DNA of 64,000 bases from NCBI RefSeq assembly GCF_001746415.1, contig NZ_MEHJ01000001.1, forward strand, positions 2,749,001 to 2,813,000, written 5' to 3'. Shown one piece after another: positions 45,483 through 61,742 of the stretch. The position numbers and the translations under genes were made by a program. Position 1 is the first letter of the stretch. Each line of letters begins with the position of its first letter. The notes under the pieces were generated by a model that made no database searches, had not been told where the DNA came from, and was given only the letters and a program-made list of their open reading frames with translations. The stretch comes from Streptomyces agglomeratus (lineage in GTDB: Bacteria; Actinomycetota; Actinomycetes; Streptomycetales; Streptomycetaceae).

Positions 45483-45746
45483 GGTCGAACCGGAAGGACA
45501 CGTTCTGCGTGTCTTCTCTTGGGGGTTCGGCCCAAAGTGGGCCGTAACCACGGTCCGTCCTGTCCGGACCGCAGCGGATTACACCGGAACCACGCTTGTT
45601 TCCCGCCATTCCAGGCGCCGAAACCAGCGCTCCGATGTGACTTACGCGACGGAAGGCCCGCCCGGCCTGCACCTCTCGGCCGGGGAGGCGTAGCCTTTAT
45701 TTCCGCTGTCCATCACCTTGCGAAGCGGAAGAGGGCGGTTAACGCC

Positions 45747-48700
45747 GTGTCGTCTCAGTCCCCCAGTAGCCCGAGCGTCTCGACCGACCAAGACGGGCAA
45801 GGGAAGAACCCTGCCGCTGCCTTCGGTCCCAATGAGTGGCTCGTCGACGAGATCTACCAGCAGTACCTCCAGGACCCGAATTCGGTCGACCGCGCCTGGT
45901 GGGACTTCTTCGCCGACTACAAGCCCGGTTCCACCCCCGCGGCGGAGAAGACCGCCACGCCCGAAGCCGATGACGTGACCGGGGCCGCCGCACAGCCGGC
46001 CCAGGCCGCTCCGGCACCCGCCGCGCCCGCCACCCCGGCGACGCCCGCGGCCACCCAGCCCGCCCCCGCCGCGGCGAAGCCCGCCGCCCAGGCCCCGGCC
46101 CCCGCCAAGGCCGCTCCGGTCACGGCTCCCGCCGCCAAGCCCGCCTCCGCCCCCGCACCGGCCGCCGCACAGCAGGCCGGCGCGAAGGCCAAGGCCGAGC
46201 CGAAGGCGGACGCCGCCAAGGAGGTCCCCGAGGGTCCCGAGTACGTGACGCTGCGCGGCCCCTCCGCCGCCGTCGCCAAGAACATGAACGCCTCGCTGGA
46301 GCTGCCCACGGCCACGTCCGTGCGCGCCGTCCCGGTGAAGCTGCTGTTCGACAACCGCATCGTCATCAACAACCACCTCAAGCGCGCCCGCGGCGGGAAG
46401 GTCTCCTTCACGCACCTCATCGGGTTCGCGATGGTGCAGGCCCTCAAGGCCATGCCGTCGATGAACTACTCCTTCGCGGAGAAGGACGGCAAGCCGACCC
46501 TGGTCAAGCCCGCGCACGTCAACCTGGGCCTGGCCATCGACCTGGTCAAGCCCAACGGCGACCGCCAGCTCGTCGTCGCGGCCATCAAGAAGGCCGAGAC
46601 GCTCAACTTCTTCGAGTTCTGGCAGGCGTACGAGGACATCGTCCGCCGCGCCCGCGCGAACAAGCTGACGATGGACGACTTCACCGGCGTCACCGCGTCG
46701 CTGACGAACCCCGGCGGCATCGGCACCGTCCACTCCGTGCCCCGCCTGATGCCCGGACAGGGCCTCATCATGGGCGTCGGCGCGATGGACTACCCGGCCG
46801 AGTTCCAGGGCACCTCGCAGGACACCCTGAACAAGCTGGGCATCTCCAAGGTCATGACCCTGACGTCGACGTACGACCACCGGGTCATCCAGGGAGCCGC
46901 CTCCGGCGAGTTCCTGCGGATCCTCTCCAACCTGCTCCTGGGCGAGAACGGCTTCTACGACGACATCTTCGAGGCCCTGCGGATCCCGTACGAGCCGGTC
47001 CGCTGGCTGAGGGACATCGACGTCTCGCACGACGACGACGTCACCAAGGCCGCCCGCGTCTTCGAGCTGATCCACTCCTACCGGGTCCGCGGCCACGTCA
47101 TGGCCGACACCGACCCGCTGGAGTACAAGCAGCGCAAGCACCCCGACCTGGACATCAACGAGCACGGCCTCACGCTCTGGGACCTGGAGCGCGAGTTCGC
47201 CGTCGGCGGTTTCGCCGGCAAGTCGATGATGAAGCTGCGCGACATCCTCGGTGTGCTCCGCGACTCGTACGTCCGGACCGTCGGCGTCGAGTTCATGCAC
47301 ATCCAGGACCCGAAGCAGCGCAAGTGGATCCAGGACCGCGTGGAGCGCCCGCACGCCAAGCCGGAGCGCGAGGAGCAGCTGCGCATCCTGCGCCGCCTGA
47401 ACGCCGCCGAGGCGTTCGAGACGTTCCTCCAGACCAAGTACGTCGGCCAGAAGCGCTTCTCCCTGGAGGGCGGCGAGTCCGTCATCCCGCTGCTCGACGC
47501 GGTCATCGACTCCGCCGCCGAGTCGCGCCTGGACGAGGTCGTCATCGGCATGGCCCACCGCGGCCGCCTGAACGTCCTCGCGAACATCGTCGGCAAGTCG
47601 TACGCGCAGATCTTCCGCGAGTTCGAGGGCAACCTCGACCCGAAGTCGATGCACGGCTCCGGCGACGTGAAGTACCACCTGGGCGCCGAGGGCACCTTCA
47701 CCGGCCTGGACGGCGAGCAGATCAAGGTCTCGCTCGTCGCGAACCCCTCGCACCTGGAGGCGGTCGACCCGGTCCTGGAGGGTGTCGCCCGCGCCAAGCA
47801 GGACGTCATCAACAAGGGCGGTACGGACTTCACCGTCCTGCCCGTCGCGCTCCACGGCGACGCGGCCTTCGCCGGCCAGGGCGTCGTCGCCGAGACGCTG
47901 AACATGTCGCAGCTGCGGGGCTACCGCACCGGCGGCACGGTCCACATCGTCATCAACAACCAGGTCGGCTTCACCGCCGCCCCGGAGTCGTCGCGTTCCT
48001 CCATGTACGCGACCGACGTGGCCCGCATGATCGAGGCGCCGATCTTCCACGTCAACGGCGACGACCCGGAGGCCGTGGTCCGCGTCGCGCGGCTCGCCTT
48101 CGAGTTCCGCCAGGCGTTCAACAAGGACGTCGTGATCGACCTCATCTGCTACCGCCGCCGCGGTCACAACGAGGGCGACAACCCGCAGTTCACCAACCCG
48201 CAGATGTACACGCTGATCGACGTGAAGCGCTCGGTGCGCAAGCTCTACACCGAGTCCCTCATCGGTCGCGGCGACATCACGCTGGAAGAGGCGGAGCAGG
48301 CGCTCCAGGACTTCCAGGGCCAGCTGGAGAAGGTCTTCGCGGAGGTCCGCGAGGCCACCTCGAACCCGGCTCCCGCCCACACCCCGGAGGTCCAGGCCGA
48401 GTTCCCGGTGGCCATCGCCACGGCGGTCTCCCAGGAGGTCGTCAAGCGGATCGCCGAGTCCCAGGTCAACATCCCCGACCGGATCACCGTCCACCCGCGC
48501 CTGATGCCGCAGATGCAGCGCCGCGCGGCCTCGGTGGAGGACGGCACGATCGACTGGGGCATGGGCGAGACCCTCGCCATCGGCTCGCTGCTGATGGAGG
48601 GCGTCCCGGTCCGGCTGTCCGGCCAGGACACCCGCCGCGGTACGTTCGGCCAGCGCCACGCGGTGCTCGTCGACCAGAACACCGGCGAGGACTACACCCC

Positions 48701-49598
48701 GCTCCAGTACCTCTCCGACGACCAGGCCCGCTACAACGTCTACGACTCGCTGCTCTCCGAGTACGCGTGCATGGGCTTCGAGTACGGCTACTCGCTCGCC
48801 CGGCCCGAGTCGCTGGTCATGTGGGAGGCCCAGTTCGGTGACTTCGTCAACGGCGCGCAGACCGTCGTCGACGAGTTCATCTCCTCGGCCGAACAGAAGT
48901 GGGGCCAGACGTCCGGCGTCACGCTCCTGCTTCCGCACGGTTACGAGGGACAGGGCCCGGACCACTCGTCGGCCCGTCCCGAGCGCTTCCTCCAGATGTG
49001 CGCCCAGGACAACATGACGGTCGCGATGCCGACCCTGCCGTCGAACTACTTCCACCTGCTGCGCTGGCAGGTCCACAACCCGCACCACAAGCCGCTCATC
49101 GTCTTCACCCCGAAGTCGATGCTGCGTCTGAAGGCGGCGTCGTCCAAGGCCGAGGAGTTCACCACCGGCGGCTTCCGCCCGGTGATCGGTGACTCGACCG
49201 TGGACCCGGCCGCCGTCCGCAAGGTCGTCTTCTGCGCCGGCAAGGTCTACTACGACCTGGAGGCCGAGCGTCAGAAGCGCGGCACGACGGACACCGCCAT
49301 CATCCGCCTCGAGCGCCTGTACCCGCTGCCGGGCAAGGAGCTCCAGGAGGAGATCGCGAAGTACCCGAATGCCGAGAAGTACCTGTGGACGCAGGAGGAG
49401 CCGGCGAACCAGGGGGCGTGGCCGTTCATCGCGCTCAACCTGATCGACCACCTCGACCTGGCGGTCGGCGCCGACATCCCGCACGGCGAGCGGCTGCGGC
49501 GCATCTCGCGTCCGCACGGCTCGTCCCCGGCCGTCGGCTCGGCCAAGCGCCACCAGGCGGAGCAGCAGCAGCTGCTCAACGAGGTCTTCGACGCCTGA
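45747..49598 (+). CDS. kgd: Multifunctional 2-oxoglutarate dehydrogenase E1/E2 (Kgd/SucA type)
   Basis: 1283 residues, the actinobacterial fusion of an E2-type succinyltransferase domain with the thiamine-dependent E1. It decarboxylates 2-oxoglutarate in the TCA cycle. The N-terminal segment [20 protein letters not shown] and a Pro/Ala-rich linker (about 65-160) replace a lipoyl domain. The E2 active-site His is in [10 protein letters not shown] (about H378). The E1 ThDP motif begins NGDDPEA (about 770), with [11 protein letters not shown] downstream. GTG 45747 has GAGGGCGG upstream. A perfect terminator follows. Confidence 0.97.
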
Positions 49599-49677: not shown

Positions 49678-52600
49678 TCAGCCGAGGTACGCCTCGAAGT
49701 CCCAGTACGGGCGGGTCCGCTGACGCGCGGACAGTGTGTGCGGGTGCTGGGCGCCGAGGGTCCGGGTGAGGGTGAGCAGCGCGTCGGCCTCCACCTTCTC
49801 GGCCTCCTCGTGCTCCCGCAGGGCCCGCAGATCGGCGGCGAGCGCCGTCTGGCAGGACAGGGTGAGCGGGTGTTCGTCGCCGAGCACCCGGCGGGACCTG
49901 CGCAGGGTGTCCCGGCTGAGGTCGGCGGCGTCCGCGACCCTGCCGTTGAAGTTGCGGCCGCCGGAGGCGTTGAGGGCGCAGCCCAGTACCCAGGGGTGGT
50001 CGGCCCCGAGGGTGGCGGTCAGGCCCGCGAGCGCCGACTCGAACATGGACATGGCCTCGCTGCGGTCACCGGCCGCCTGCATCACCAGACCGGTGTTGGC
50101 GAGCATGCCCGTGGCGACGGGGTGCGCGGGGCCGAGCAGTGCCCGGTATCCGGCCTCCGCCTCGGCGATCAGATCCTTCGCCTTGGCCAGGTCGCCGTGC
50201 TCGCGCTGGAAGTTCCCGTAGTCGTTGATGAACGACAGGGTGCTGTAGTGGGTCCTGCCGTGGACCTGCTCCAGCTGTTCCATCAGGCTGTCCATGAGCG
50301 GCCCGATGTCCTGCTGGAAGCCGCCTTCGCGCCGCCGGGCGAGCGCCAGGTGCGTGCGCGCGGCCAGGGTCTGCGGGTGCAGCGGGCCGAGCACCTGCAC
50401 GTGGAGCCGCACCACCGGCTCCTGCCGGGCCACCGAGTCGCGGTACTGGCCCAGCAGCCGCAGCCCGTGGGCCACCGCGTTGCCGGAGTTGAGCGTGGTG
50501 ATGTGCCGGGTGCGCAGGGCGTTCTGGCGCCTGCTGAGGGTTTCCAGGTCGAGTTCGTACGCCTCCCGGTAGCGCCCGAGCAGGCGCAGTCCGACTCCGA
50601 GGTTGTGCCGGGCGTTGAGGGAGGTCAGCTCGTTCTCGCCGAGCAGCCGTTCCTCGTCGGCCAGCACCTGCCGTTGCAGTTCCAGCGCCTCCTGGTAGCG
50701 GCCGAGCCTGCGCAGTCCGCTGGCGAGATTGCCATTGATGCTGAGTTCGCCGAGTTCGTTGCGCGGCTCGGCGGCCCGGAGCCGCTGCATCATGGCGCTG
50801 TCGAGTTCGTAGCCCTCGCGGAAGCGGCCCGCCGAGCGGAGCAGGTTGCTCTGCTGGGTGGTCAGGTCGAGCATGTTCGGGGCCAGCGGGTCCATGAAGA
50901 CGGTCCAGTGGTTGCGGATCTTCTCCGCGAGCCGGGTGCCGGCCGTGAACTCGCCGCTGCGCCGGCAGTACTGGAGACAGTTCAGTACGGCGGCCTGCAC
51001 ACGGGCGTTGGAGCTGCTCAGCGCGCCCGACGGCTCCAGGTGCGGCAGCAGCTCGGCGTACTGCGGCCACTGCCTGCTGTCGAGCGGGTTGCCGGGGTCG
51101 GCCTCGGCCAGCAGCGTCCGTACGGCCTTGCGGTAGGTCTCGCGGTTCTCGTCGCTGGTGAGCCGGGACACCATGTCGTGGACGAGCCGGTGCATGTGCA
51201 CGGACTCCTGGTGGGGTCCCATCTCCGTGTTGACGGGGCCGCGGCTCTCGCGGGTGAGCACCGAGTACGTGACGAGGGTGTCCAGTGCCCGCGTCCAGGC
51301 GGTCAGGTCGGTGCTCATCCAGCGCAGTTCCTCGGGGAGGTCCGCCTGCGGGTACGCGCGGGCCAGCCCGAGCGGGATCCTGCCCGGGGCGAAGGACGCG
51401 CACAGGCTGAGCACTTCGACGGCCTGCGGCTGGGTCCGGCGGAGCCGGTTGATGAGGATCGACCACGAGGTGAGCGAGGAGTGGGGGAACCCGTCCCCGG
51501 CGGGCTCCTCGACGGTGGAGAGCCGTCCCTCCCGGACCATGCGCAGGTACTCCGGGACCTCCATCCGGGTCTCGCCGAGGAGGGAGGCGGCCTGGACGAG
51601 CGACAGGGGTACGTCGCCGAATTCCGCGGCCACCTCGTCCGCCTGCGCGGAGGTGACGTGCGGGGCCCGGCGCATCAGGTAGCCGGTGGACTCCGCGCGG
51701 TCGAAGCTGGGCACGTCGAGTACGTCCGTGTGCTCGCCCCACCCTCTGTTGCGCGAGGTGACGATGGTGTGGCCCGGACCGTGCGGCAGCAGGACGCCCG
51801 CGCCGTCGGTGTCGTCCCAGCCGTCGAAGATGACGAGCCAGCGGCTGTACGGTTCGCCGCGCCGCAGGGCGTCGCGCACGGCCCGGATGCGCTCACCGGG
51901 CTCGTTGCCGCTGCGCAGCCCGAGTTCCACGGAGAGCTCGCCGAACCGGTCGCGCTGGATGTTGCGGTCGTCGGAGTTGACCCACCAGATGACGTCGTAG
52001 TCGGTGCTGAAGCGGTGGGCGTACTCGGCGGCGATCTGGGTCTTGCCGATGCCGGACATGCCGAGCAGGGTGCAGGCGGAGTTGCCGCGTTCGGCTTCCG
52101 TCAGCCGCTCCTGGAGCTCGGTGAGGATGTCGTCGCGGCCGGTGAAGCGCCGGTTGCGGCGCGGGACCTCGCCCCAGACCTCGGGCGGGGTGTTGGGGAA
52201 GCGGGAGCCGCTCGCCGGGGGCTGGCGGCCCGTGGTGCGCCGGTAGTCGATGCCGAGCCGGCCGAGGAGCCGCTCCTCGGCCTCCTCCTCGCCCGTACTC
52301 CAGAGGCTGACGGGTTCCAGGACGGCCGTGGCCGGGGGCAGCTGGCGGTTGGTGAGGTTGACGGCCGCGAACCGGTCGGCGTTGTCCGCGACGTATCCCC
52401 GCAGTACGTCGTTCCACTCGCCTGCCGCCCGTGGCCCCAGCTCGAAGAACCAGTCGTTGAGGACGAGCAGCACCCGGCCGGTCGACATCAGGAGATCGCC
52501 GAGCGATTCCTCCAGCGGCACCTCGCGCGGCGGGTCCCAGCGCTGGAGCGTGACCCGCCGGCCGTGGAACTCCAGGCGCTGCGCGATCCAGTTGGCCCAC

Positions 52601-52701
52601 GGACGGTGGTAGCCGGGGAAGACCACGAGGAAGCGCTCCGGTCCCCCCTGGCCGTCACGCCCTGCCGCACCGGCGCCGCCCGACCGCCGCTGATCCACCA
52701 T
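49678..52701 (-). CDS. fxsT: FxsT-type TIR/NB-ARC/TPR protein of the FxSxx-COOH system
   Basis: About 1007 residues. A TIR-like domain (about 21-135) includes RFLVVFPGYHRPWANWIAQR and a GEWND helix. A STAND/NB-ARC ATPase (about 185-440) has P-loop GMSGIGKT (about 214-221), Walker B WLVIFDGWDD and sensor TSRNRGW. The last 400 residues are tandem tetratricopeptide-like repeats (RRLGRYQEALELQRQVLADE, RLLGRYREAYELDLETLSRR). STAND proteins switch on oligomerisation when a ligand binds, and TIR domains often cut NAD. ATG 52701 (MVDQRR) has GGGAGA; a start at 52761 is also open. It closes the cluster. Confidence 0.87.
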   Translation of the reverse strand: MVDQRRSGGAGAAGRDGQGGPERFLVVFPGYHRPWANWIAQRLEFHGRRVTLQRWDPPREVPLEESLGDLLMSTGRVLLVLNDWFFELGPRAAGEWNDVLRGYVADNADRFAAVNLTNRQLPPATAVLEPVSLWSTGEEEAEERLLGRLGIDYRRTTGRQPPASGSRFPNTPPEVWGEVPRRNRRFTGRDDILTELQERLTEAERGNSACTLLGMSGIGKTQIAAEYAHRFSTDYDVIWWVNSDDRNIQRDRFGELSVELGLRSGNEPGERIRAVRDALRRGEPYSRWLVIFDGWDDTDGAGVLLPHGPGHTIVTSRNRGWGEHTDVLDVPSFDRAESTGYLMRRAPHVTSAQADEVAAEFGDVPLSLVQAASLLGETRMEVPEYLRMVREGRLSTVEEPAGDGFPHSSLTSWSILINRLRRTQPQAVEVLSLCASFAPGRIPLGLARAYPQADLPEELRWMSTDLTAWTRALDTLVTYSVLTRESRGPVNTEMGPHQESVHMHRLVHDMVSRLTSDENRETYRKAVRTLLAEADPGNPLDSRQWPQYAELLPHLEPSGALSSSNARVQAAVLNCLQYCRRSGEFTAGTRLAEKIRNHWTVFMDPLAPNMLDLTTQQSNLLRSAGRFREGYELDSAMMQRLRAAEPRNELGELSINGNLASGLRRLGRYQEALELQRQVLADEERLLGENELTSLNARHNLGVGLRLLGRYREAYELDLETLSRRQNALRTRHITTLNSGNAVAHGLRLLGQYRDSVARQEPVVRLHVQVLGPLHPQTLAARTHLALARRREGGFQQDIGPLMDSLMEQLEQVHGRTHYSTLSFINDYGNFQREHGDLAKAKDLIAEAEAGYRALLGPAHPVATGMLANTGLVMQAAGDRSEAMSMFESALAGLTATLGADHPWVLGCALNASGGRNFNGRVADAADLSRDTLRRSRRVLGDEHPLTLSCQTALAADLRALREHEEAEKVEADALLTLTRTLGAQHPHTLSARQRTRPYWDFEAYLG

Positions 52702-52772
52702 GTACACGTCTCCCTGTCTTGCGCCCCGTACCAGCACTCGCCGACCGAACGTAACGGTCACTTGACACAGTG

Positions 52773-54056
52773 TTACCCACAGATCCGCTGAGTCGCTCCG
52801 AGGCTCGCGTGGTGCTCTCGCATCTCACCGGCGAACTCCCGGCCCTCTACGGTCAGTTCATCGGATTCCAGCAGTACGGACAAGGCTTCCGCGACGTGTC
52901 CGCGATGCAGCTCGAACTGGTGCGCGGCCCGCCGCCGCCAGGCGGGCGGGGAGCCGGCCCCGGTCGCGGCCCGCCGCCACAGGTCCGTGAGCGCCAGATG
53001 CGCGTACGCGCCCTGGAGTACGCCCGACACGGGACGCGGGTCGGGGCGCCAGCCGACCGGGTGCAGGTCCTCCCCGCCCGGCCGGTACAGCGGTACGCGT
53101 TCGTGGAGGGCGGCGAGCTTCGTGTGATGGGTCTCGTGAACGAGCACCTCGGCGAACTCGTGGGGCCCGGCCGGCGGAGAGGCCAGCAGGCCGCCGGGCG
53201 CCGCCCGGAGTGTGGCGCTCGCCGGCTGGTCCTCGCCGCGCCGCGGCGCCGCCGGAGCCAGCGGCACGACGACGCGCTGCACGGCCAGTATCTCGGCGGC
53301 CCGCCCCGGGTCCGTCGTGTCGATCAGTTCGAGGGAACGCCGCCAGAGGTGCGCCCAGAAGTCGTGGCTGACACCGTCCCGTTCGGCCACGGGCGGGGCG
53401 GAGCTGCCCGGGATCCGGGGCGGGACCCGGTACGGGTGCAGGTCGTCGAGGACGGCGGTGGTGCCGGGCAGGGTGCGCAGGCCCGACCAGCCGGGTCCGC
53501 CGCCCAGGAGTCCGGCGCGGCCACCGGTGCCCCGCCGCAGCAGGGCGAACGTACGACCGCCTCCGGTGATGCGTACGCACCTGCCGCGGGCGTGCAGGGT
53601 CGCCCGGTGGGCGGGGCAGCGCAGGGAGCCCAGGCCGGGCAGGGGGAGCCGCCCGCCGGGTGCGTCGAGGGTCAGGCGCAGGTCGCAGCCGGCGCGCAGA
53701 GCCGCGGTGACGGCTATGGAGCCGAAGTGTGCGAGGTGCCGGTCCAGCAGGGGGCCCGCGGGTGCCGTGAGGGACTCGGCCAGCCAGGCGCCGGTCAGCG
53801 GGTAGTCGACGACCGCGCGGACCTCGGCGGGGTCGCGCAGTTCCGCGTGCTCCAGCAGCCGCCAGTGCCTGGCGAAGCGTTCCCGTACCGCCGGGTCGAC
53901 GGGGGCCGGCTGCCGGTCGAGGCGTACCAGCAACGACTTGAGCAGCAGGAGCCGGCGGGCGTGCAGACCGGCCTTCAGTGCGGCGGTGGCGGCCGGGGCG
54001 GGCCGGGTGCGGGCCAGCCGGCCGAACACGGCGGCGGGGATCGGGGTCATGGGCAT
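52773..54056 (-). CDS. HExxH-motif peptide hydroxylase-like protein of the FxSxx type
   Basis: 427 residues. The HExxH motif is EVLVHETHHTKL (about 307-311) in the C-terminal half, with a further conserved region GVLQGAYAHLALTDLWRR. Relatives in FxSxx loci are labelled HEXXH-motif or aKG-HExxH peptide beta-hydroxylases. The motif could be zinc-protease-like or bind iron for 2-oxoglutarate chemistry. It lies between the small peptide and fxsT on one strand. Peptide hydroxylation is inferred from family naming and context, not from ligand evidence here. Confidence 0.8.
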   Translation of the reverse strand: MPMTPIPAAVFGRLARTRPAPAATAALKAGLHARRLLLLKSLLVRLDRQPAPVDPAVRERFARHWRLLEHAELRDPAEVRAVVDYPLTGAWLAESLTAPAGPLLDRHLAHFGSIAVTAALRAGCDLRLTLDAPGGRLPLPGLGSLRCPAHRATLHARGRCVRITGGGRTFALLRRGTGGRAGLLGGGPGWSGLRTLPGTTAVLDDLHPYRVPPRIPGSSAPPVAERDGVSHDFWAHLWRRSLELIDTTDPGRAAEILAVQRVVVPLAPAAPRRGEDQPASATLRAAPGGLLASPPAGPHEFAEVLVHETHHTKLAALHERVPLYRPGGEDLHPVGWRPDPRPVSGVLQGAYAHLALTDLWRRAATGAGSPPAWRRRAAHQFELHRGHVAEALSVLLESDELTVEGREFAGEMREHHASLGATQRICG

Positions 54057-54143
54057 CCCGGCTCCTCCCTTCCTGCCGTCGTCCAGGGCTGGTCCCTCCG
54101 ACCGGTTGGCCGTGCCACCGATCTGACCGGAAAGCGACTGCGT

Positions 54144-54347
54144 TCAGCCTCTGGTCGAGTCCTCCCCCGCCCACCACGACTCGGCGAGCTCCCGGGTGCG
54201 GTGCAGCACCTCGTCGACCGCACGCCGGACCTCCGGGTCGTCCATGACACGTAAAGTCCGCAGGTCGGCGTCGGTGAGGTCGGGTACGGCCGGAGGGGGC
54301 CCGGCGTCCTGCCCCGGGCCGGCAACCGCGGTGTTCCAGTGCGACAC
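54144..54347 (-). CDS. Small FxsA-like precursor peptide candidate
   Basis: 67 residues, MSHWNTAVAGPGQ at the start. The segment VPDLTDADLRTLRVMDDPEV followed by RRAVDEVLHR resembles the leader of FxSxx-COOH precursors (PDLT...L..L..LDDP...A...VL). The tail AESWWAGEDSTRG lacks the FxSxx ending. GTG 54347 is preceded by GGGAGGAG six bases upstream, one of the best ribosome-binding sites in the window. It lies between the vWA-type gene and the HExxH gene, same strand. A modified peptide is the likely role. Confidence 0.72.
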   Translation of the reverse strand: MSHWNTAVAGPGQDAGPPPAVPDLTDADLRTLRVMDDPEVRRAVDEVLHRTRELAESWWAGEDSTRG

Positions 54348-54447
54348 GCTTGACTCCTCCCTGCCGGCACCCGTCCCGCACGGCCGCAGCGGCTGCCCAG
54401 TTCTTCCCGACAGCGGGGAAACAGAAACATGTTCGACTTCACTCCGG

Positions 54448-57400
54448 TCAACCGGCCTTCGCCCCGGTGAACGGCCACCAGGGGGGCGCCGGGCGGCGCC
54501 GGTCCGCCTCCTCCGGACTCTGATCGTCAGCCCGGGCTCCGGCTCCCCGGCGCCGCTCCGTCAGCCGCTCGATCCGCTCTCGCGGCGCCGCGGCCTCCGC
54601 CCAGTCCACCTCGACCAGGGAGGAGATCAACCGCTGCCACCGCTCGTGCGCACGCTCGAACGACCTGCGGGCGGCCCCGGTACGGCCCATGAGTTCCAGC
54701 ACACAGCCCTGCGCGTACACGGCCCGTGCCGCTGTCCGGGAGCCCGGCCGGGTCCCGTGCGCACCGTCGGCGTCGCGCTGAGCGCTCTCGTACGCCTGGA
54801 GGGCGTCCGACAGAAGCGTCGCGGCCGATACGCGGGCGAGTTCCAGCCGCGCGCGGCCGACCACCAGCCACGCCTCGGCCCGTACGCCGGTGTCCGTCAG
54901 CCGCTTCGCGGCCTCCTCCAGCAGGTGGCGGCCCTCGTACAGGTCCGGCAGGAAACCGACCCGCTGGAAGCGGAGCGCCAGCGCGCTGCCGAGCAGCAGG
55001 TGCAGCCTGCTGCGGGACGCGGAGCGGGCGGGCATCCCGGCGAGCGCCTCGCGCAGGACGCTTTCCGCCCGGCCCACGGTGTCCTCGCCGGCCGTGTCCG
55101 GTTCGGCGGCGGCGCGGCGCAGCAGCGACTCGCCCCATTCGGTGAGGAGTTCGCAGCGCCGGGTGCTGTCGGGCGGTGCGAGGCCGGAGGCACTCTCGTA
55201 CGCACGGTCGGCTGACGCGGGGTCGCCCGCCGCGTCGTGCAGCCGGGCCTGGGCGGTCAGGCAGCGCAGCCGCAGCGCCGGGTCCTCGCCGGCGGCCCGC
55301 GCGGCGCGGGCCAGGACCTCGGCGATGCCGGCGTGCGGGGCGTCCGCGGCGCGCAGGGCCTCGGCGAGGTCGAGGAGGGCGGGGCAGCGGAGGCTGTCGG
55401 GGGCGTCTTCGGCGTCCAGCATGTCGCACCCCGAACGGAGTTCACGTACGGCCTCTTCGGCCCGGTGCAGGGCGAGCAGCAGCCGCCCCCGGCGCAGCCG
55501 CAGCGTCCGGCGGGACGCGGCCAGCCAGAGGCCGGGGTCTCCCGCGAGCGCGTCCAGGCCCGCGGCGAGGTGCTGGTCGTCGCGCGTCTCGCGCCACAGG
55601 GCGTGGTGCGCGGCGGCGAGTTCCAGGCAGGCGTCGGCACGGGCCGGGCTGCCATCCGGCGCGCGGTCGCGGGCCTCGGCGAGGGTACGGGCCGCGCGCA
55701 GCAGCAGTTCACGGCCGCGCTCCGAGCCGCGCACAGCCGGAGCCCCCGCCTCCGCGAGCAGCACCCGGCCCAGCACCAGCCCGGCCCGCGCCGCGCCGGT
55801 CCCGTGGTCGGGCGCCCTGTCCGGTCCGGGGCCGCCGGGGGCCGGGCCACCGGCCCGCAGCGCCGCCTCGGCGCGTTCGCGGGCGCGGCGGAGCAGCGAG
55901 GGGTCGGCCTGGGAGCGCCACTGGCCCAGGAGGCGCTCGGCCTCGGCCAGCGGTACGGGGGTGATGAGGTCGGGCAGGTAGAAGCGCAGCACCCGGGCGG
56001 GGATCTCGGCGAACAGCTCGGGCTCGGCGCCGGTTCCCTCGTCCTCCCCCGCGCCCCCGTCCGCGCCCGGCCCCCAGGGAAGTCCGGGGTCCGTGGCGGC
56101 GCCGAGCTCGGAGAGCCTGGCCGCGGCCAGCGCCGAGAAGTTGCGGGCCCCCTTGCCGAAGTGCCGCTCGACGTACGAAGAGCAGTGCTTGAGCACGAGG
56201 GCGGCGGCGTCCTGCCCCAGCGAGTTCAGCAGCAGCTCCTGCACCCCGTCCGCGTACACGTAGCAGGGCGTCCCCGATCCCGGTTCCGTTCCGGGCAGCT
56301 GCCTGAGCAGCCCGCCGAGCAGCACTTCGGCGAGTTCCATCGGGCCGGTGTCGGGCAGCATCGCCCGCTGCACGAGCTGCATCACGGGCAGGGTCAGGGG
56401 CGCGGCCGCGAGGTGGACGGCGAGCCGGACACCGCCGCGTGAGGCGTTGGCCCGGAAGGCGCGCAGCAGTTCGTCGGCGCTGCGGCCGGGCTCGGGAGCG
56501 GGCTCCGCGGCGGGCGGGGCGAGTTCCTGGGCGAGGACGTCCGCCGGCCCGTGGGCGTCGGTCCAGGCCGCCCAGCCACGCACCGTACTGCCGCCGTGGT
56601 CGGACAGCAGCCGCGCCCACGAGCCGAACGCCTCGGGCGTGGGCGGCAGTACGGGCACGGGCCTGGCCGTGGCCTCCAGCGGCTCCCACGGTTCCTCGTC
56701 GGGGACGAAGGCCGTACGGCCGCCGGAACCCGCCGCCCGCACCAGCAGCCCCGGTTCGGCGGGCAGCGCCGTACGGGCCCACAGGCGGGGCGGCAGCGGC
56801 TGGACGACGGCCAGCGGGGAGCTGCGCGGCCACTGGTGGATGAGCCGCTGCGCCCGGCCCTGCTGCCACAGCGGGCCGACGCAGTCGCTGACGACGAGGG
56901 TGAGCCTGCGGCCCGTCGGGTCGTGGAACTGGTCGGCGGGGCGCAGCCGGGTATGCCCGCCGGGGCCGGTCGTGGTGCCGATGAGGGGCGCGCCGCCGTC
57001 CCCGGCGTCGTACAGCTGATGGACCTGTACGTCGCGGAAGACCCCGGACTGCTGGCACGCCTGCCGCAGTTCCTCGACCATCCGCTCCCAGACGGCCATC
57101 GCGGGCCCGGCGTCCATGAGCAGCTGGATGTCCACGCTGCGGCGTTCGGAGGGGCGCAGCACGGGGCACAGCACGCCGGTCATGGCGCTGCGTTCGGCCG
57201 TGGCGTCCTCGTCGAGGCGCCCGCCGGCCGCCGGCCGGGCCGCGGTGGTCGTGTAGTGGCGCAGGGGCCGCAGGGCGCGTTGCAGGCCGAGCAGCCCGGG
57301 CAGCGCGGCGGCCGCGGGGGCGCGTACCGGGAAGCCCGGCCGGGCGGCCCCGGCCGCGGCCCGGGGGCCACCGGGGCCGTCGCCGCCCCCGCCGCCGGGT

Positions 57401-57675
57401 GCGTAGAGCGACACGGGACCGGACGCCGGGGACGGGCCGGGGTCGTCCGCGCCGGTGCCGGCGCCGGGACGGCCGGGCGGTGCGGTCGTCCGGCCCTCCC
57501 GGCCGGACCGGCCGCCGCCGGTGTCCTCGCCCGGCTCCCGGGGGTCGCCGGAGGCGCCCGTCGGCGTACGGTCCGACGGAAGCCACTGAGCCAGCCAGAC
57601 GGCGTCCGCGACCTCCTCGGCCGTGGGGTCGAGGCCGCCGCTCCTCAGCCTGCCGACAAGTTCCCCCAGGTCCAT
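54448..57675 (-). CDS. SAV_2336-like vWA-domain protein of the VMAP ternary system
   Basis: 1075 residues. The N-terminal conserved helix ELVGRLRSGGLDPTAEEVADAVWLAQWL marks the SAV_2336 N-terminal family. A Gly/Pro-rich linker leads to a vWA-like domain (about 180-300): SVDIQLLMDAGPAMAVWERM, then TLVVSDCVGPLW. The MIDAS DxSxS reads DAGPA, so metal binding is probably lost. The last 500 residues are Ala/Arg-rich helical repeats of TPR type. The start lies 7 bp after the MoxR gene, so the two are coupled. The function is inferred from the vWA-MoxR pairing. Confidence 0.83.
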   Translation of the reverse strand: MDLGELVGRLRSGGLDPTAEEVADAVWLAQWLPSDRTPTGASGDPREPGEDTGGGRSGREGRTTAPPGRPGAGTGADDPGPSPASGPVSLYAPGGGGGDGPGGPRAAAGAARPGFPVRAPAAAALPGLLGLQRALRPLRHYTTTAARPAAGGRLDEDATAERSAMTGVLCPVLRPSERRSVDIQLLMDAGPAMAVWERMVEELRQACQQSGVFRDVQVHQLYDAGDGGAPLIGTTTGPGGHTRLRPADQFHDPTGRRLTLVVSDCVGPLWQQGRAQRLIHQWPRSSPLAVVQPLPPRLWARTALPAEPGLLVRAAGSGGRTAFVPDEEPWEPLEATARPVPVLPPTPEAFGSWARLLSDHGGSTVRGWAAWTDAHGPADVLAQELAPPAAEPAPEPGRSADELLRAFRANASRGGVRLAVHLAAAPLTLPVMQLVQRAMLPDTGPMELAEVLLGGLLRQLPGTEPGSGTPCYVYADGVQELLLNSLGQDAAALVLKHCSSYVERHFGKGARNFSALAAARLSELGAATDPGLPWGPGADGGAGEDEGTGAEPELFAEIPARVLRFYLPDLITPVPLAEAERLLGQWRSQADPSLLRRARERAEAALRAGGPAPGGPGPDRAPDHGTGAARAGLVLGRVLLAEAGAPAVRGSERGRELLLRAARTLAEARDRAPDGSPARADACLELAAAHHALWRETRDDQHLAAGLDALAGDPGLWLAASRRTLRLRRGRLLLALHRAEEAVRELRSGCDMLDAEDAPDSLRCPALLDLAEALRAADAPHAGIAEVLARAARAAGEDPALRLRCLTAQARLHDAAGDPASADRAYESASGLAPPDSTRRCELLTEWGESLLRRAAAEPDTAGEDTVGRAESVLREALAGMPARSASRSRLHLLLGSALALRFQRVGFLPDLYEGRHLLEEAAKRLTDTGVRAEAWLVVGRARLELARVSAATLLSDALQAYESAQRDADGAHGTRPGSRTAARAVYAQGCVLELMGRTGAARRSFERAHERWQRLISSLVEVDWAEAAAPRERIERLTERRRGAGARADDQSPEEADRRRPAPPWWPFTGAKAG

Positions 57676-57682
57676 CCGGCAC

Positions 57683-58714
57683 TCACCTCGGGCGGTCGAG
57701 TGGTCGCATGAGCATTTCGGCGATGCGTTCGCGCGTGACGCGCTCCGCGCGAGGGGCGTGCTGGGTGAGGTAGAGGGCGTTGAGCAGCTGGTCGGCGGCG
57801 ATGATCTCGCCGGGTTCGCGGCCGAGGAAGCGTTCGATCAGGTCCCGTCCCTCGGTCGCCGCCTCACTTCCGAGGTGCGCCTCGACCATGGCGGTGAGCT
57901 GCTCCTCGCCGGGCGGTTCAAGCTCCAGCTGGATGCAGCGGCGCAGCAGCGCGGCGGGGAAGTCCCGCTCGCCGTTGGAGGTGAGGACGATGAACGGGAA
58001 GGTCGTGCAGCGGACCCGGCCGCCGCGCACCGGCACCTTGCGGCCGTCGTCGGTCAGGACGTCGACGACCGGCTCGCGGTCGGCGATCCGCTCCAGCTCG
58101 GGGATGGCGAACTCGCCTTCCTCCAGGGCGTTCAGCAGGTCGTTCGGCAGGTCGAGGTCGCTCTTGTCGAGCTCGTCGACGAGCAGCACACGCGGCTGCT
58201 CGGACGGCAGCAGCGCGGTGCCGAGCGGTCCGAGGCGTACGTACGAGCCGATGCTCGACGCCGCCGCCGACGGCCCCGCGCCCTGCGCCCGCTCCAGCTG
58301 TACGTCCTGGAGGCGGCCGATGGCGTCGTAGCGGTAGAGCCCGTCCTGGAGAACGGAGCGGCTGACGATGGGCCAGCGCAGCACGCGCCCGAGGCCGAGC
58401 TCGTGGGCGACGGCCTGCGCCAGAGTCGACTTCCCGGTGCCCGGGTTGCCGGTCACCAGCAACGGCCGGCGCAGGTACAGGGCCGCGTTGACCGCGTCGA
58501 CCTCGGCGGGTCTGGGGTGGTGGTTCTCCACCAGCCGGCGCTGGACGCCGAGCCTGCGGGCCGCGCTCGGGTCGGTGGCCGCGGGGTCCGTGGAGCCGCT
58601 GCCGTCGGTGTCCTGGCCCACGGAGGCGAAATCACGCCACGGGGGCGGGCCGGGTAACCGCTGCACTCCGTCGTGCGGCAGCCCCGCGCCGCGATAGATC
58701 CGCCAGTCTGTCAC
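57683..58714 (-). CDS. MoxR-type AAA+ ATPase
   Basis: 343 residues. Walker A is GNPGTGKSTL (about residue 90), Walker B VLLVDELDKSD, sensor 1 FIVLTSNGERDFP and arginine finger ALLRRC. MoxR ATPases remodel or assemble client complexes, normally with a vWA protein partner, here encoded 7 bp downstream. GTG 58714 (MTDWRIYRG). The gene lies 149 bp after the trypsin-VMAP gene, perhaps with its own promoter. Confidence 0.93.
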   Translation of the reverse strand: MTDWRIYRGAGLPHDGVQRLPGPPPWRDFASVGQDTDGSGSTDPAATDPSAARRLGVQRRLVENHHPRPAEVDAVNAALYLRRPLLVTGNPGTGKSTLAQAVAHELGLGRVLRWPIVSRSVLQDGLYRYDAIGRLQDVQLERAQGAGPSAAASSIGSYVRLGPLGTALLPSEQPRVLLVDELDKSDLDLPNDLLNALEEGEFAIPELERIADREPVVDVLTDDGRKVPVRGGRVRCTTFPFIVLTSNGERDFPAALLRRCIQLELEPPGEEQLTAMVEAHLGSEAATEGRDLIERFLGREPGEIIAADQLLNALYLTQHAPRAERVTRERIAEMLMRPLDRPR

Positions 58715-58863
58715 TGATTTTCACCTCGCGGGTAGGTGGGGACGGGAGCCGGCCCGGCGGTCCGGGGGGCTGACGTTACCGTTCAACTCCCTTTCTGCCG
58801 ACCCCGGTTCAGGGCCGGTTGCCGGGTTTCGGCCGGGCCCGCCCGCCCGTGCCTGACGGGCCG

Positions 58864-60939
58864 TCATGTGCCGGGCCCGGACAGCGGCGGCGGAACCTGG
58901 AGCGGCACGCCGTCGTACGGCGGACGGTCGGGCGGATCGAAGAGTACGGCGACGGAGTCGGCCCAGGCCGCCTCCGCCACCGTGTCGGGTGTCGCGTCGG
59001 GGTCCATCGAAATGATGCGCAGGGAACGTATGTGCCGGTGCAGGCCGTCCACGCCGTCGGCGCGCACCAGCAGTTCGTCGGCGCGCGCGTGGAACTCCCG
59101 GCAGTCGCCGTGCTCCCGGCCGCATCTGCGCCACAGCGCCAGCGGATGCCCGGCCGCGAGCGCGGCGGCCATCGCGTCGAACCCGTCGCCGCTGCCGACC
59201 GGTCCGCAGTACACGGGCACGGTGCCGTCCTCGGCGTCGGACAGCCTGGCGTACGCGGCCCTGCGGGACTCCCGGCGGGCGCCTGGGCCGTGCCCCGACG
59301 CGGGCACCTCGCCGCGCAGCGGCACGACGGTGAGCGGCCCCCGCACGGCGGCCTTCCACCGCCGGCGCCATTCGGGGCTCGCCGGGCGGTCGCGGCGCCT
59401 GCGGTCCCGTATGACGACGATACGGCGCTCCCCCAGCGCCATGCTGTGCTCGTCGAAGAGATCGTCCTCGGGGGAGAGCCGCCAGGTGTCGAGGGGCTCG
59501 TCGAACAGTTCGCGCGGCAACAGGGCCTCGACCGCCGCCAGATGCTCCCCGCTGTCGCCCCGGCGCAGGGCGTCCGCGAGCGGTTCGCGGAGCGTCTCGC
59601 GCAGCTCGGCGCGGGGCACCCCGCGGTCGTCCCCGGAGAGCGGGCTGACGGTCCGCCCCTCGTAGAGGAGCTTGACGCGCCACGGGTAGCGGTCGCCGTA
59701 GTGCACCGGGTCGATCTCCACGAGTACGTCCGCCCGCGCCTGCCCGGCCGGGCGCTCCCGTACGAAGCCGGACCCGAACGCCGGTGCTGGAGCCTCCGTT
59801 TCCGGCAGCTCCAGCACCTGTGCGATCTCCTCGCGGATGGCCTGGTGCGCGGACTCGCCCTGCGTGGTGATCCACTCGGCGAGCTCCCCGAGCGCGGCGC
59901 ACTGGGGCCCGTCGGAACGGCCCCGGCCCTGCCCGGCGAGATGCCTGACGACTTTGGCGGCGTACAGCAGCACCGCGTCGACGTCGAGATCGTGTCCGCT
60001 CTCCTGGCCGCGCAGGTCGTGCAGCAGGCCGACGCCGTCGCGCCAGGTGCGCGGGTCGTGCTCGATGGGTGACTGGTAATCGCTGTGCAGGACACGGCGC
60101 TTGACGTCGTCGACGAGGACCATGACCTCGCCGGGCCCGGTGGGCGGCGACAGCTCGGCGAACCGGCCGAAGAGGTGGGCGCGCGCGGCGGGCAGGAACC
60201 CGGGGGCGCCCTTGCGCCGCCGGTCGGCCTGCGCCCGCACCCAGCCGCCGGGGGCCGCGGTGCTGCGGAAGCGGCGCAGGTGGTGGCGGTCGTGCTCGCG
60301 CAGGACGGTGTGCAGAATCTCGCCGCCCCGCAGGTCGTGCAGTTCACGCAGGGCGGTGATGGGTACGGCGGCGCCCTCGTGCTCCCCGCGCCCCTTGTTC
60401 ATGCCGATGACGGCGCCGTGCCTCAGGTCGACGACGGGCCCGCCCGAGCAGCCCTCGACGGGCAGACTGCCGCGCAGCAGCAGCGCCTTGCCGTCGGTGG
60501 CGTGCGCCTTGCCGACGCCGTGCCGTATGCCGAGGTCGCCGGTCTCCCTGGACCAGCCGTGCAGGCTCACGTCGGCGGGGATGGCGGGGGGCCGCTCGCT
60601 GAGCCAGACGCAGGCGGCGTCCTGGGCGTCGGGGACCCGGACCAGGGCGATGTCGGGGAACTCCCAGCGGTACGGGGGCTCTTCGGGGTCGGCGGGCCGG
60701 GGCTTGGCGAGGACCACTTCGCCCGTGGTCGTACCGCCCTGCCAGGTGATGCCGAGTGCGCGCTCACCCCTCCACACGCCGGCCGCCCCCTTCCCCACCA
60801 CATGGGCACAGGTCAGCACCCAGCCGGGGGCGATGAAGAAACCACTGCCCCAGTAGCGGGCGCCGTGCGGGTCATACCCGCCTCCGGGCGCGGCAATGCG
60901 TACGAGCGAGGGGCGCACGATCTCGTCGAAGACGTTCAC
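58864..60939 (-). CDS. Trypsin-like protease fused to a VMAP-C domain
   Basis: 691 residues. An N-terminal trypsin-like domain (about 1-205) has an intact triad: H46 in LTCAHVVG, D96 in FPDIALVRV and S165 in VEGCSGGPV. The rest matches a vWA-MoxR-associated-protein (VMAP) helical middle and C-terminus, with LLPRELFDEPLDTW and the RRIVVIRDRRRRDRP strand. No signal peptide is seen, so the protease acts in the cytosol. In ternary conflict systems the protease is the effector, switched by MoxR/vWA. The gene lies 7 bp after the Trypco1 gene. Confidence 0.88.
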   Translation of the reverse strand: MNVFDEIVRPSLVRIAAPGGGYDPHGARYWGSGFFIAPGWVLTCAHVVGKGAAGVWRGERALGITWQGGTTTGEVVLAKPRPADPEEPPYRWEFPDIALVRVPDAQDAACVWLSERPPAIPADVSLHGWSRETGDLGIRHGVGKAHATDGKALLLRGSLPVEGCSGGPVVDLRHGAVIGMNKGRGEHEGAAVPITALRELHDLRGGEILHTVLREHDRHHLRRFRSTAAPGGWVRAQADRRRKGAPGFLPAARAHLFGRFAELSPPTGPGEVMVLVDDVKRRVLHSDYQSPIEHDPRTWRDGVGLLHDLRGQESGHDLDVDAVLLYAAKVVRHLAGQGRGRSDGPQCAALGELAEWITTQGESAHQAIREEIAQVLELPETEAPAPAFGSGFVRERPAGQARADVLVEIDPVHYGDRYPWRVKLLYEGRTVSPLSGDDRGVPRAELRETLREPLADALRRGDSGEHLAAVEALLPRELFDEPLDTWRLSPEDDLFDEHSMALGERRIVVIRDRRRRDRPASPEWRRRWKAAVRGPLTVVPLRGEVPASGHGPGARRESRRAAYARLSDAEDGTVPVYCGPVGSGDGFDAMAAALAAGHPLALWRRCGREHGDCREFHARADELLVRADGVDGLHRHIRSLRIISMDPDATPDTVAEAAWADSVAVLFDPPDRPPYDGVPLQVPPPLSGPGT

Positions 60940-60946
60940 GGCGCGC

Positions 60947-61417
60947 TCATACCGCGCCGCGGGCCGAAGGACCGGGGCCGGACCCCGGCCCGGCGGCCGG
61001 GTCCGCGACCGGTTGCGCCCCCGGAGCCCCGGGCGGTCCGGCGGCCGGTGGCGCCGCCGGGTCGGCGGCCGGATCGCCGGGCGGCCCTGCGACCGGTTCG
61101 GTCCACGTGAGGGAGACCGAGACGGACGCCCTGCCGCCGCCGTCGGCGAGAACGCCGATCACCTTGCCGGACTGGGCCGACAGTTCGATGCCGAAGGTCA
61201 CCGCGACCTGGACGGGCGCGGTGGGGTCCAGCCCGGCGCGCAGCGACCGCACCACGCCCTGGACGACATCGGTCAGTCCGCCCGCCATGGAGACGACCCG
61301 GTCACCGATCCCGGTGTCCCGGTAGCCGCCGCCCCGTTCGAGCTCCTGCGCCTCGCTGACACGTGCCCAGACGACGGTCCCGTCGTCGAGCCGAACCTGT
61401 GCGATCCCATTGGCCAC
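60947..61417 (-). CDS. Trypsin-co-occurring (Trypco1, CU044_2847-like) protein
   Basis: 156 residues. The first 107 form a Trypco1 domain (VRLDDGTVVWARVSEAQ, VAVTFGIELSAQSGKVIGVLADGG, then SVSLTW). A Pro/Ala/Gly tail follows. This domain is named for its gene neighbourhood with trypsin-like proteases, which is the case here: it begins the cluster and ends 7 bp before the protease. It probably helps recognition or docking. The biochemical role is unknown. Confidence 0.86.
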   Translation of the reverse strand: MANGIAQVRLDDGTVVWARVSEAQELERGGGYRDTGIGDRVVSMAGGLTDVVQGVVRSLRAGLDPTAPVQVAVTFGIELSAQSGKVIGVLADGGGRASVSVSLTWTEPVAGPPGDPAADPAAPPAAGPPGAPGAQPVADPAAGPGSGPGPSARGAV

Positions 61418-61556: not shown

Positions 61557-61742
61557 TTGTACTTCACCGATCGCGGCATCGAGGAGCTGGAGAAGCGGCG
61601 CGGCGAGGAGGAAGTCACCTTCGAGTGGCTCGCCGAGCAGCTGCGTACGTTCGTCGACCTCAACCCGGACTTCGAGGTTCCGGTCGAGCGCCTCGCGACC
61701 TGGCTGGCCCGTCTGGACGACGAGGACGACGAGGACGAGTAA
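61557..61742 (+). CDS. DUF6104 family small protein
   Basis: 61 residues, MYFTDRGIEELEKRRGEEEV at the start and an acidic tail (DDEDDEDE). It matches the small acidic actinomycete family DUF6104, of unknown function. The TTG start at 61557 has ACGGAGCA as a weak ribosome-binding site. A stem-loop terminator begins three bases after the stop. It is divergent from the conflict cluster and is probably a housekeeping gene unrelated to it. Confidence 0.88.
   Translation: MYFTDRGIEELEKRRGEEEVTFEWLAEQLRTFVDLNPDFEVPVERLATWLARLDDEDDEDE

Follow-up and report, generated by a model that had tools for sequence, protein, structure and literature searches.

Introduction

Do seven neighbouring genes of Streptomyces agglomeratus constitute a single system, or two unrelated ones that happen to lie side by side? 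The question is raised by a cassette at positions 49678–61417 of the stretch of DNA analysed here (64,000 nucleotides of contig NZ_MEHJ01000001.1, assembly GCF_001746415.1; hereafter the window). Its first four genes, encoding a Trypco1 protein, a trypsin-VMAP protease, a MoxR-type ATPase and a von Willebrand factor A (vWA) protein, are those of a VMAP-ternary system (the core). Its last three, encoding a small protein of 67 amino acids (aa), a HExxH enzyme and FxsT (TIR - NB-ARC - TPR), resemble parts of the FxSxx-COOH system of ribosomally synthesized and post-translationally modified peptides (RiPPs; the peptide module).

The linkage of VMAP systems to peptide modules is already published: according to Kaur et al. 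(2020; PMC7159879), who also proposed the mechanism class, conflict or self-destruction, about 20% of the VMAP systems of actinobacteria are accompanied by a peptide-processing module. Among the papers listed by our literature search there was no functional test of VMAP-ternary conflict or self-destruction, and no description of the chromosomal slot and of the coreless peptide type reported below. As far as this search shows, the present version of the cassette and the slot-level allelic series are new.

Results

The two halves of the cassette share a history

The history of each half was followed through one gene, with MoxR representing the core and FxsT the peptide module, and that of the flank through the neighbouring gene kgd, a narrow proxy for the chromosome when used by itself. 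The tree distances of MoxR and FxsT were strongly correlated over 48 cassettes (0.91). Over the 45 slot alleles with a flank, both the correlation and the partial correlation of MoxR with FxsT were 0.92, as compared to 0.12 (MoxR) and 0.08 (FxsT) with kgd. The agreement was also found within the cassette types defined below, namely 0.91 in type A, that of the window (16 alleles), 0.90 in type B (20) and 0.88 in type E (9). The two halves therefore share a history that is not shared by the flank.

The first-pass annotation had joined the two modules and had named adjacency by chance as what would refute this view; on these correlations chance adjacency is rejected, and the two modules belong together. 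That two independent systems met here by accident is thus extremely improbable, even though each half also occurs alone in the slot (four core-only and two peptide-module-only alleles), since both halves are present in 48 of the 54 filled slots and their association is published (PMC7159879).

The cassette is one allele of a chromosomal slot

The slot lies between DUF6104 and the convergent kgd, and holds type A and most of type B; a kgd gene was detected close to 18 of the 19 loci of type A and to 20 of the 23 of type B. Both border genes stood on one contig in 108 of 121 Streptomyces genomes, where the gap between them measured less than 600 bp in 41, 0.6–2 kb in 7, 2–8 kb in 10, 8–20 kb in 48 and more in 2. 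Among these 108 slots, 54 are filled (16 with type A, 24 with type B, 10 with type E and 4 with the VMAP core only), the types being assigned by us from the locus contents, with L095 and L109 (type D by the simple rule given below) counted with type B. The others hold a HExxH gene only (4), less than 600 bp (41) or another short sequence of 0.6–4.6 kb (9, one of them, L285, with an FxsT fragment).

Counted by module, 48 slots have the core and the peptide module, 4 the core alone, 2 the peptide module alone, 4 a HExxH-only relic and 50 neither. The two peptide-module-only alleles (L095 and L109) carry the peptide, a radical S-adenosylmethionine (rSAM) enzyme, HExxH and FxsT beside DUF6104, and gave no VMAP, MoxR or vWA matches. 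The relics (L042, L043, L135 and L142) are slots of about 1.5 kb, and the HExxH motif of L142 has Phe in place of its first His. Apart from these relics, FxsT was found in all 50 slots with rSAM and/or HExxH, and the 4 core-only slots gave no separate FxsT gene (three weak matches of 79–97 bits, and none in the fourth). The slot is thus an allelic series: rSAM and HExxH together (FxSxx-like), rSAM alone (YxD-like), HExxH alone (as in the window), neither (core only), or empty.

The relics, the FxsT fragment of L285 and the 41 slots shorter than 600 bp could be taken to mean that the peptide half is decaying, the loss of rSAM and of the peptide core being the first step towards loss of the cassette. 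We regard this explanation as very unlikely, since the HExxH and WRxDxRP motifs are intact in all 20 type-A rows aligned, the P-loop lysine of FxsT is present in 85 of the 86 type-A rows that are distinct (the remaining row has a gap), and type A is an old clade, in which the 12 HExxH sequences aligned share as little as 41% identity with that of the window.

Two side observations concern the borders of the slot. Of the 51 complete type-A loci showing DUF6104, 29 have this gene and the cassette on opposite strands and 22 have both on one strand, a pattern suggestive of a small inversion. Besides, the kgd product consumes alpha-ketoglutarate (alpha-KG), the co-substrate of the HExxH family; this overlap is probably a coincidence.

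Relatives of the cassette form several types

The HExxH and VMAP-C family searches covered the same 121 genomes. Among the matches listed, there were 105 HExxH matches of at least 100 bits (those below were left out) and 150 VMAP-C matches; 57 of these 105 HExxH matches lay within 15 kb of VMAP-C, and 94 of the VMAP-C matches listed had no HExxH nearby, of which 40 were retrieved at first. In this first locus set the types were assigned by a simple rule, and the tally includes three stretches of the window's own genome (L145–L147). Type A has the seven genes, with HExxH and without rSAM, and type B the same set plus rSAM (23 loci). Type A comprises 20 loci, of which the window is one and some lie at the edge of a contig. 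An aromatic-x-S/N motif occurs near the C-terminus of the peptide in 19 of the 23 type-B loci, the others being L099, L110, L117 and L133. In type C the FxsT-like part is fused to vWA (31 rows, where L075 and L112 are overlapping stretches of one genome, and L139 and L140 have rSAM). Type D has rSAM without a detected vWA (16 rows), and a further 18 rows fall outside all types.

A second locus set came from a scan of named genomes, of which the best 80 of 122 loci were kept. All 80 are from Streptomyces; 78 are type A without rSAM, and two (L262 and L265) carry rSAM. All seven genes stand in order on one strand in 61 of the 78; another 15 are truncated ahead of MoxR, with no more than 3.4 kb between the HExxH match and the end of the DNA stretch, and 2 lack a same-strand Trypco1 match. 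The seven-gene order of type A exceeds chance. On both the MoxR and the FxsT tree, which are quick trees drawn with midpoint rooting, type A is one supported group, which cannot be said of types B and E on both trees. The MoxR tree requires two changes for type E and the FxsT tree, which has a long-branch warning, two for type B; rSAM may have been lost in type A or gained in the other types.

Type E (L174, L186 and L268–L275) is the mirror image of the window, with the VMAP core, rSAM and FxsT, and without HExxH. Its peptides, found in 8 of the 10 loci, have Y-x-D/N-like tails; the one scanned, that of L186, reached 85.8 bits against the YxD-tail family NF041709 (cutoff 55). HExxH-labelled matches of 53–79 bits in L268–L270 were rejected: they overlap the rSAM match and were taken as out of frame, the query frame extending upstream of HExxH. 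Among the matches listed for TIGR04267, five of the ten type-E genomes had none, three had matches elsewhere only, and two (G023 and G063) had one weak match each.

The small protein keeps a RiPP leader and lacks the core

The small protein ends in ELAESWWAGEDSTRG and has neither an FxSxx nor a YxD core. The FxSxx-COOH model TIGR04268 matched its leader only, below the cutoff of 28 bits (Table 1), and NF041709 gave no match up to E=1. The reading of the first-pass annotation thus survives in part: FxsT and the peptide leader do match the FxSxx-COOH system, but in core and enzymes the module departs from it, as the rSAM enzyme and the F-x-S core are missing, and the peptide cannot be called an FxSxx peptide.

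Its GTG start is preceded by GGGAGGAG. A protein search with the 67-aa sequence returned a sole match, the window's own protein, whose entry bears the label PF27839; a Pfam scan of the small protein did not give that label. In alignments, the leader is common to the peptides of types A and B and, more distantly, E. By reading, 71 of 72 type-A peptides of the second locus set have a conserved Trp directly behind the helix (the exception is L243). The tail after this Trp is variable in sequence and measures 4 to 60 aa in the 64 rows measured. The codon positions of six close type-A relatives (15 pairs), two of which are nearly identical, were then compared. The leader showed 103, 98 and 218 differences at the three positions over 870 codon pairs, and the tail 39, 34 and 37 over 111. 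The type-A leader is under coding constraint, and the tail is without visible protein-level constraint.

These data bear on an explanation that we consider unlikely, namely that the small protein is an ordinary RiPP precursor, from which HExxH (perhaps with an rSAM enzyme acting in trans) matures a C-terminal peptide released as a toxin or signal. The homology of the leader to FxSxx-COOH would agree with it, as would the relatives of HExxH that are described to modify, and able to cleave, RiPP precursors (PMC12636437), and the FxsB/YhhB-like rSAM present elsewhere in the genome (see below). It accounts poorly for a tail of such variable sequence and length, with no coding constraint seen in the six close relatives, and for the finding of an aromatic-x-S/N/D-x-x ending in only 3 of the 72 type-A peptides. 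As a separate observation, an F[SP]-[AV] stretch (for instance TFSVGLA, AFSAGPA or MFPVASA) occurs in the variable tail of some type-A peptides (L048, L051, L057, L193, L200 and others).

HExxH belongs to the alpha-KG hydroxylase family and has no rSAM partner in the cluster

The HExxH protein has the HETHH and WRPDPRP motifs and no radical SAM domain. Its sequence matches PDB 22nu (E=1.3e-21) and 8s5f, ChlH (E=3.5e-11, over the C-terminal catalytic part), and it scores 100.4 bits against NF040587, the FxsBH inactivated-hydroxylase model (cutoff 225). Judged by these motifs and matches, it is an intact relative of the alpha-KG-type hydroxylases.

The HExxH protein was treated as a zincin-like metallopeptidase (MPTase) in PMC7159879, and PflC is reported to be proteolytic on a leaderless substrate (PMC12636437). 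Under this proposal of 2020, the enzyme would be a zinc metallopeptidase with the small protein as the substrate that it cleaves. We find this quite unlikely, as the protein falls well inside the family that NCBI now names alpha-KG-HExxH peptide beta-hydroxylase (Table 1) and as the characterised members are reported to hydroxylate, PflC and PosC cleaving as well (PMC12636437).

Profile searches of the loci found no radical SAM gene in the window cluster or in its type-A relatives. In the window's own genome the search for a cognate FxsB gave no candidate over cutoff: the best, a single FxsB/YhhB-like rSAM (L145; G000:C2:346955-348010), lies distant from the cassette, reaches 338 bits where 370 is required and falls short of the two NCBIfam cutoffs. 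The 20 kb stretch around it yielded no convincing leader-like peptide, the best leader-profile match (E=0.01) being about 9 kb off.

The protease core keeps its main catalytic motifs

The His, Asp and Ser positions of trypsin-VMAP are present, and are kept in 16 type-A rows and in the aligned type-B rows, except that the type-B row L081 is cut before His and Asp. By reading, this protein has no evident signal peptide. The MoxR ATPase has Walker A, Walker B (both kept in types A and B) and LLRRC, and near its N-terminus WRIYRG and PPWRDF agree, by reading, with the motifs WxhapG and PsWRxa that PMC7159879 gives for the MoxR of VMAP systems.

The vWA protein keeps both aspartates (LLMDAGPAM and VVSDCVG), the serines of its metal-ion-dependent adhesion site (MIDAS) being degenerate (DAGPA, not DxSxS), and its C-terminal part is weakly TPR-like (Table 1). 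Of the 17 type-A rows, 16 deviate from DxSxS at this site (the exception is L097); in most of type B the site is canonical. Over 100 rows, a canonical [DE]xSxS was counted in 25 of 26 rSAM-bearing and 8 of 74 rSAM-less rows (Fisher, 1.3e-15). A link between MIDAS and rSAM did not stand further scrutiny and is at most a lead: the tree gives just two or three independent pairs, with a sign test that is not significant, and the link is broken by L268, L269 and L270 (rSAM with degenerate MIDAS) and by L276 (DxSxS without rSAM).

Layout of the cassette

The seven reading frames, announced by the first-pass annotation, are all present on the minus strand with the families expected, from 61417 to 49678, and codon-position GC agrees with each of them (Table 1). 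From Trypco1 to FxsT, the open reading frame coordinates give intergenic gaps of 7, 149, 7, 100, 87 and 11 bp; the last becomes 71 bp if FxsT begins at the in-frame ATG 52701, which is likely its start and where the alignments of several homologues begin. Four tight junctions (7–71 bp) had been claimed; there are three of at most 71 bp, the first, the third and the last. No terminator-like site was found at the junctions, the two overlapping matches both lying within the VMAP gene (1.7 expected from shuffles), which is weak support for a single transcript.

Table 1. Genes of the cassette and of the two slot borders, with their positions in the window.
Feature	Coordinates	Strand	Evidence
Trypco1 (CU044_2847 family), first cassette gene	60947..61417	-	PF19493 57.6 bits; NF041216 53.5 bits
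Trypsin-VMAP	58864..60939	-	VMAP-C PF20028 139.8 bits; Trypsin_2 PF13365 53.4 bits
MoxR-type AAA+ ATPase	57683..58714	-	AAA_5 PF07728 32.1 bits
SAV_2336-type vWA protein	54448..57675	-	NF041121 457.1 bits; C-terminal TPR_2 E=0.046
Small protein, 67 aa	54144..54347	-	TIGR04268 18.9 bits, model 1-35 of 44
Stand-alone alpha-KG-HExxH-type peptide beta-hydroxylase relative	52773..54056	-	TIGR04267 149.5 bits, cutoff 40
FxsT, TIR - NB-ARC - TPR	49678..52761	-	NF040586 750.7 bits, cutoff 300; TIR_2 45.3, NB-ARC 29.4, TPR_10 109.3
DUF6104, upstream slot border, outside cassette	61557..61742	+	PF19599 126.8 bits; slot census
2-oxoglutarate dehydrogenase E1 (kgd/sucA type), convergent downstream border, outside cassette	45519..49598	+	PF00676, PF16870, others; slot census

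Discussion

A proposed working of the cassette

We propose, tentatively and with a probability of about 0.4, that the seven genes are one co-inherited VMAP-ternary conflict cassette, whose signalling module derives from a RiPP system and is devoid of cyclophane chemistry, and that they work through self-harm. The data show the gene families, the catalytic motifs (that of the TIR in part), the conserved order, the lack of rSAM and FxSxx, and the common history of the two halves; the functional steps, including the modified residue, the target, the trigger and the outcome as cell arrest or death, are what we infer. In the resting cell, MoxR and vWA would keep the trypsin-VMAP protease, together with Trypco1, in an inactive complex. 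The alpha-KG/Fe HExxH enzyme would oxidise the leader-only small protein, perhaps on the conserved Trp or close to it, or would restrain it, and the small protein would serve as a ligand or licence for the TPR arms of FxsT and/or of the vWA protein. A disturbance, for example infection, would release or change this ligand. FxsT would then oligomerise via NB-ARC and its TIR domain would signal; MoxR would remodel the complex and the VMAP protease would damage the cell, thereby halting spread in the mycelium.

Several observations weigh against this proposal. First, PADLOC gave only weak partial matches and no clear system. Second, type A is a single clade in a single slot and its loci are not independent; moreover, the two locus sets overlap, 12 of the 19 type-A loci of the first recurring in the second. 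Third, no peptide gene was found by profile search in the type-E loci L272 and L274. Fourth, the TIR glutamate, which is carried by the FxsT of the window and whose column is the presumed catalytic position, is not strictly conserved. Of the 86 distinct type-A rows, 74 have E in this column, 11 have D and 1 has a gap, and E is found in 22 of 25 type-B and 6 of 10 type-E distinct rows; NADase activity of the TIR appears doubtful in part of the family. Fifth, within type A MoxR and FxsT also follow kgd (0.68 and 0.64; the flank correlations within types B and E are lower, 0.24–0.39), and much of the conservation of type A is therefore plain vertical inheritance.

This last point also fits the alternative that the cassette serves mycelial development or programmed death, and not phage defence, as does the strong tie of VMAP systems to multicellular bacteria (694 of 716 organisms in Table 1 of PMC7159879). 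We judge this alternative the less likely one, since a fixed slot that is filled in some genomes and shorter than 600 bp in 41 of 108, and a history apart from the flank, are more reminiscent of conflict genes than of a core pathway of development. Slot polymorphism, together with the vWA-MoxR-VMAP genes reported to adjoin type III CRISPR loci elsewhere (PMC10910872), favours a role in conflict.

Within the proposal of a conflict cassette, we put forward with more doubt that a RiPP leader has turned into a stand-alone switch. The leader (with its one Trp) and the hydroxylase, left as a two-part module after the cyclophane-forming enzyme and the core peptide are gone, might license the TIR-STAND protein and the protease complex, possibly sensing oxygen, iron or 2-oxoglutarate, the cassette being one allele in a slot where whole immune-like cassettes of differing peptide chemistry (FxSxx, YxD, coreless or none) swap. 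A leader retained without its core would, if confirmed, be an unusual fate for a RiPP system. Since the natural allelic series of the slot separates the parts genetically, the contribution of the modified peptide to the protease/TIR machine of VMAP systems can be tested directly.

Comparison with known systems

Similarly to the VMAP-ternary systems with an FxSxx module described in PMC7159879, the window has the VMAP-MoxR-vWA order, Trypco1 with trypsin, a vWA without a fused AP-ATPase and a separate TIR-AP-ATPase-TPR protein downstream of the peptide genes. In that description the FxSxx type has an rSAM gene, TPRs fused to vWA and the separate TIR-AP-ATPase downstream, and in the RxD and acidic types vWA is itself fused to the AP-ATPase. 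Neither of these descriptions fits the window, which lacks rSAM, the FxSxx motif and a fused AP-ATPase. Relatives with both rSAM and HExxH occupy the same slot in 24 of 108 genomes, two of them without the VMAP core.

With respect to the FxSxx-COOH cyclophane RiPPs (TIGR04268; TIGR04269, FxsB; NF040586, FxsT), the window shares FxsT and the peptide leader, and lacks the core and FxsB. FxsC, a TIR-like protein, is another component of the FxSxx-COOH system. The ten slot cassettes of the YxD-tail cyclophane type (NF041709) are homologous to that of the window and share the VMAP core and FxsT; they have rSAM without HExxH, whereas the window has HExxH without rSAM. Finally, the window enzyme belongs to the same family as the alpha-KG-HExxH hydroxylases (ChlH, PDB 8s5f; PflC/PosC), with the HExxH and WRxDxRP motifs in common, but it stands alone beside a VMAP system, and its presumed substrate is without a cyclophane motif.

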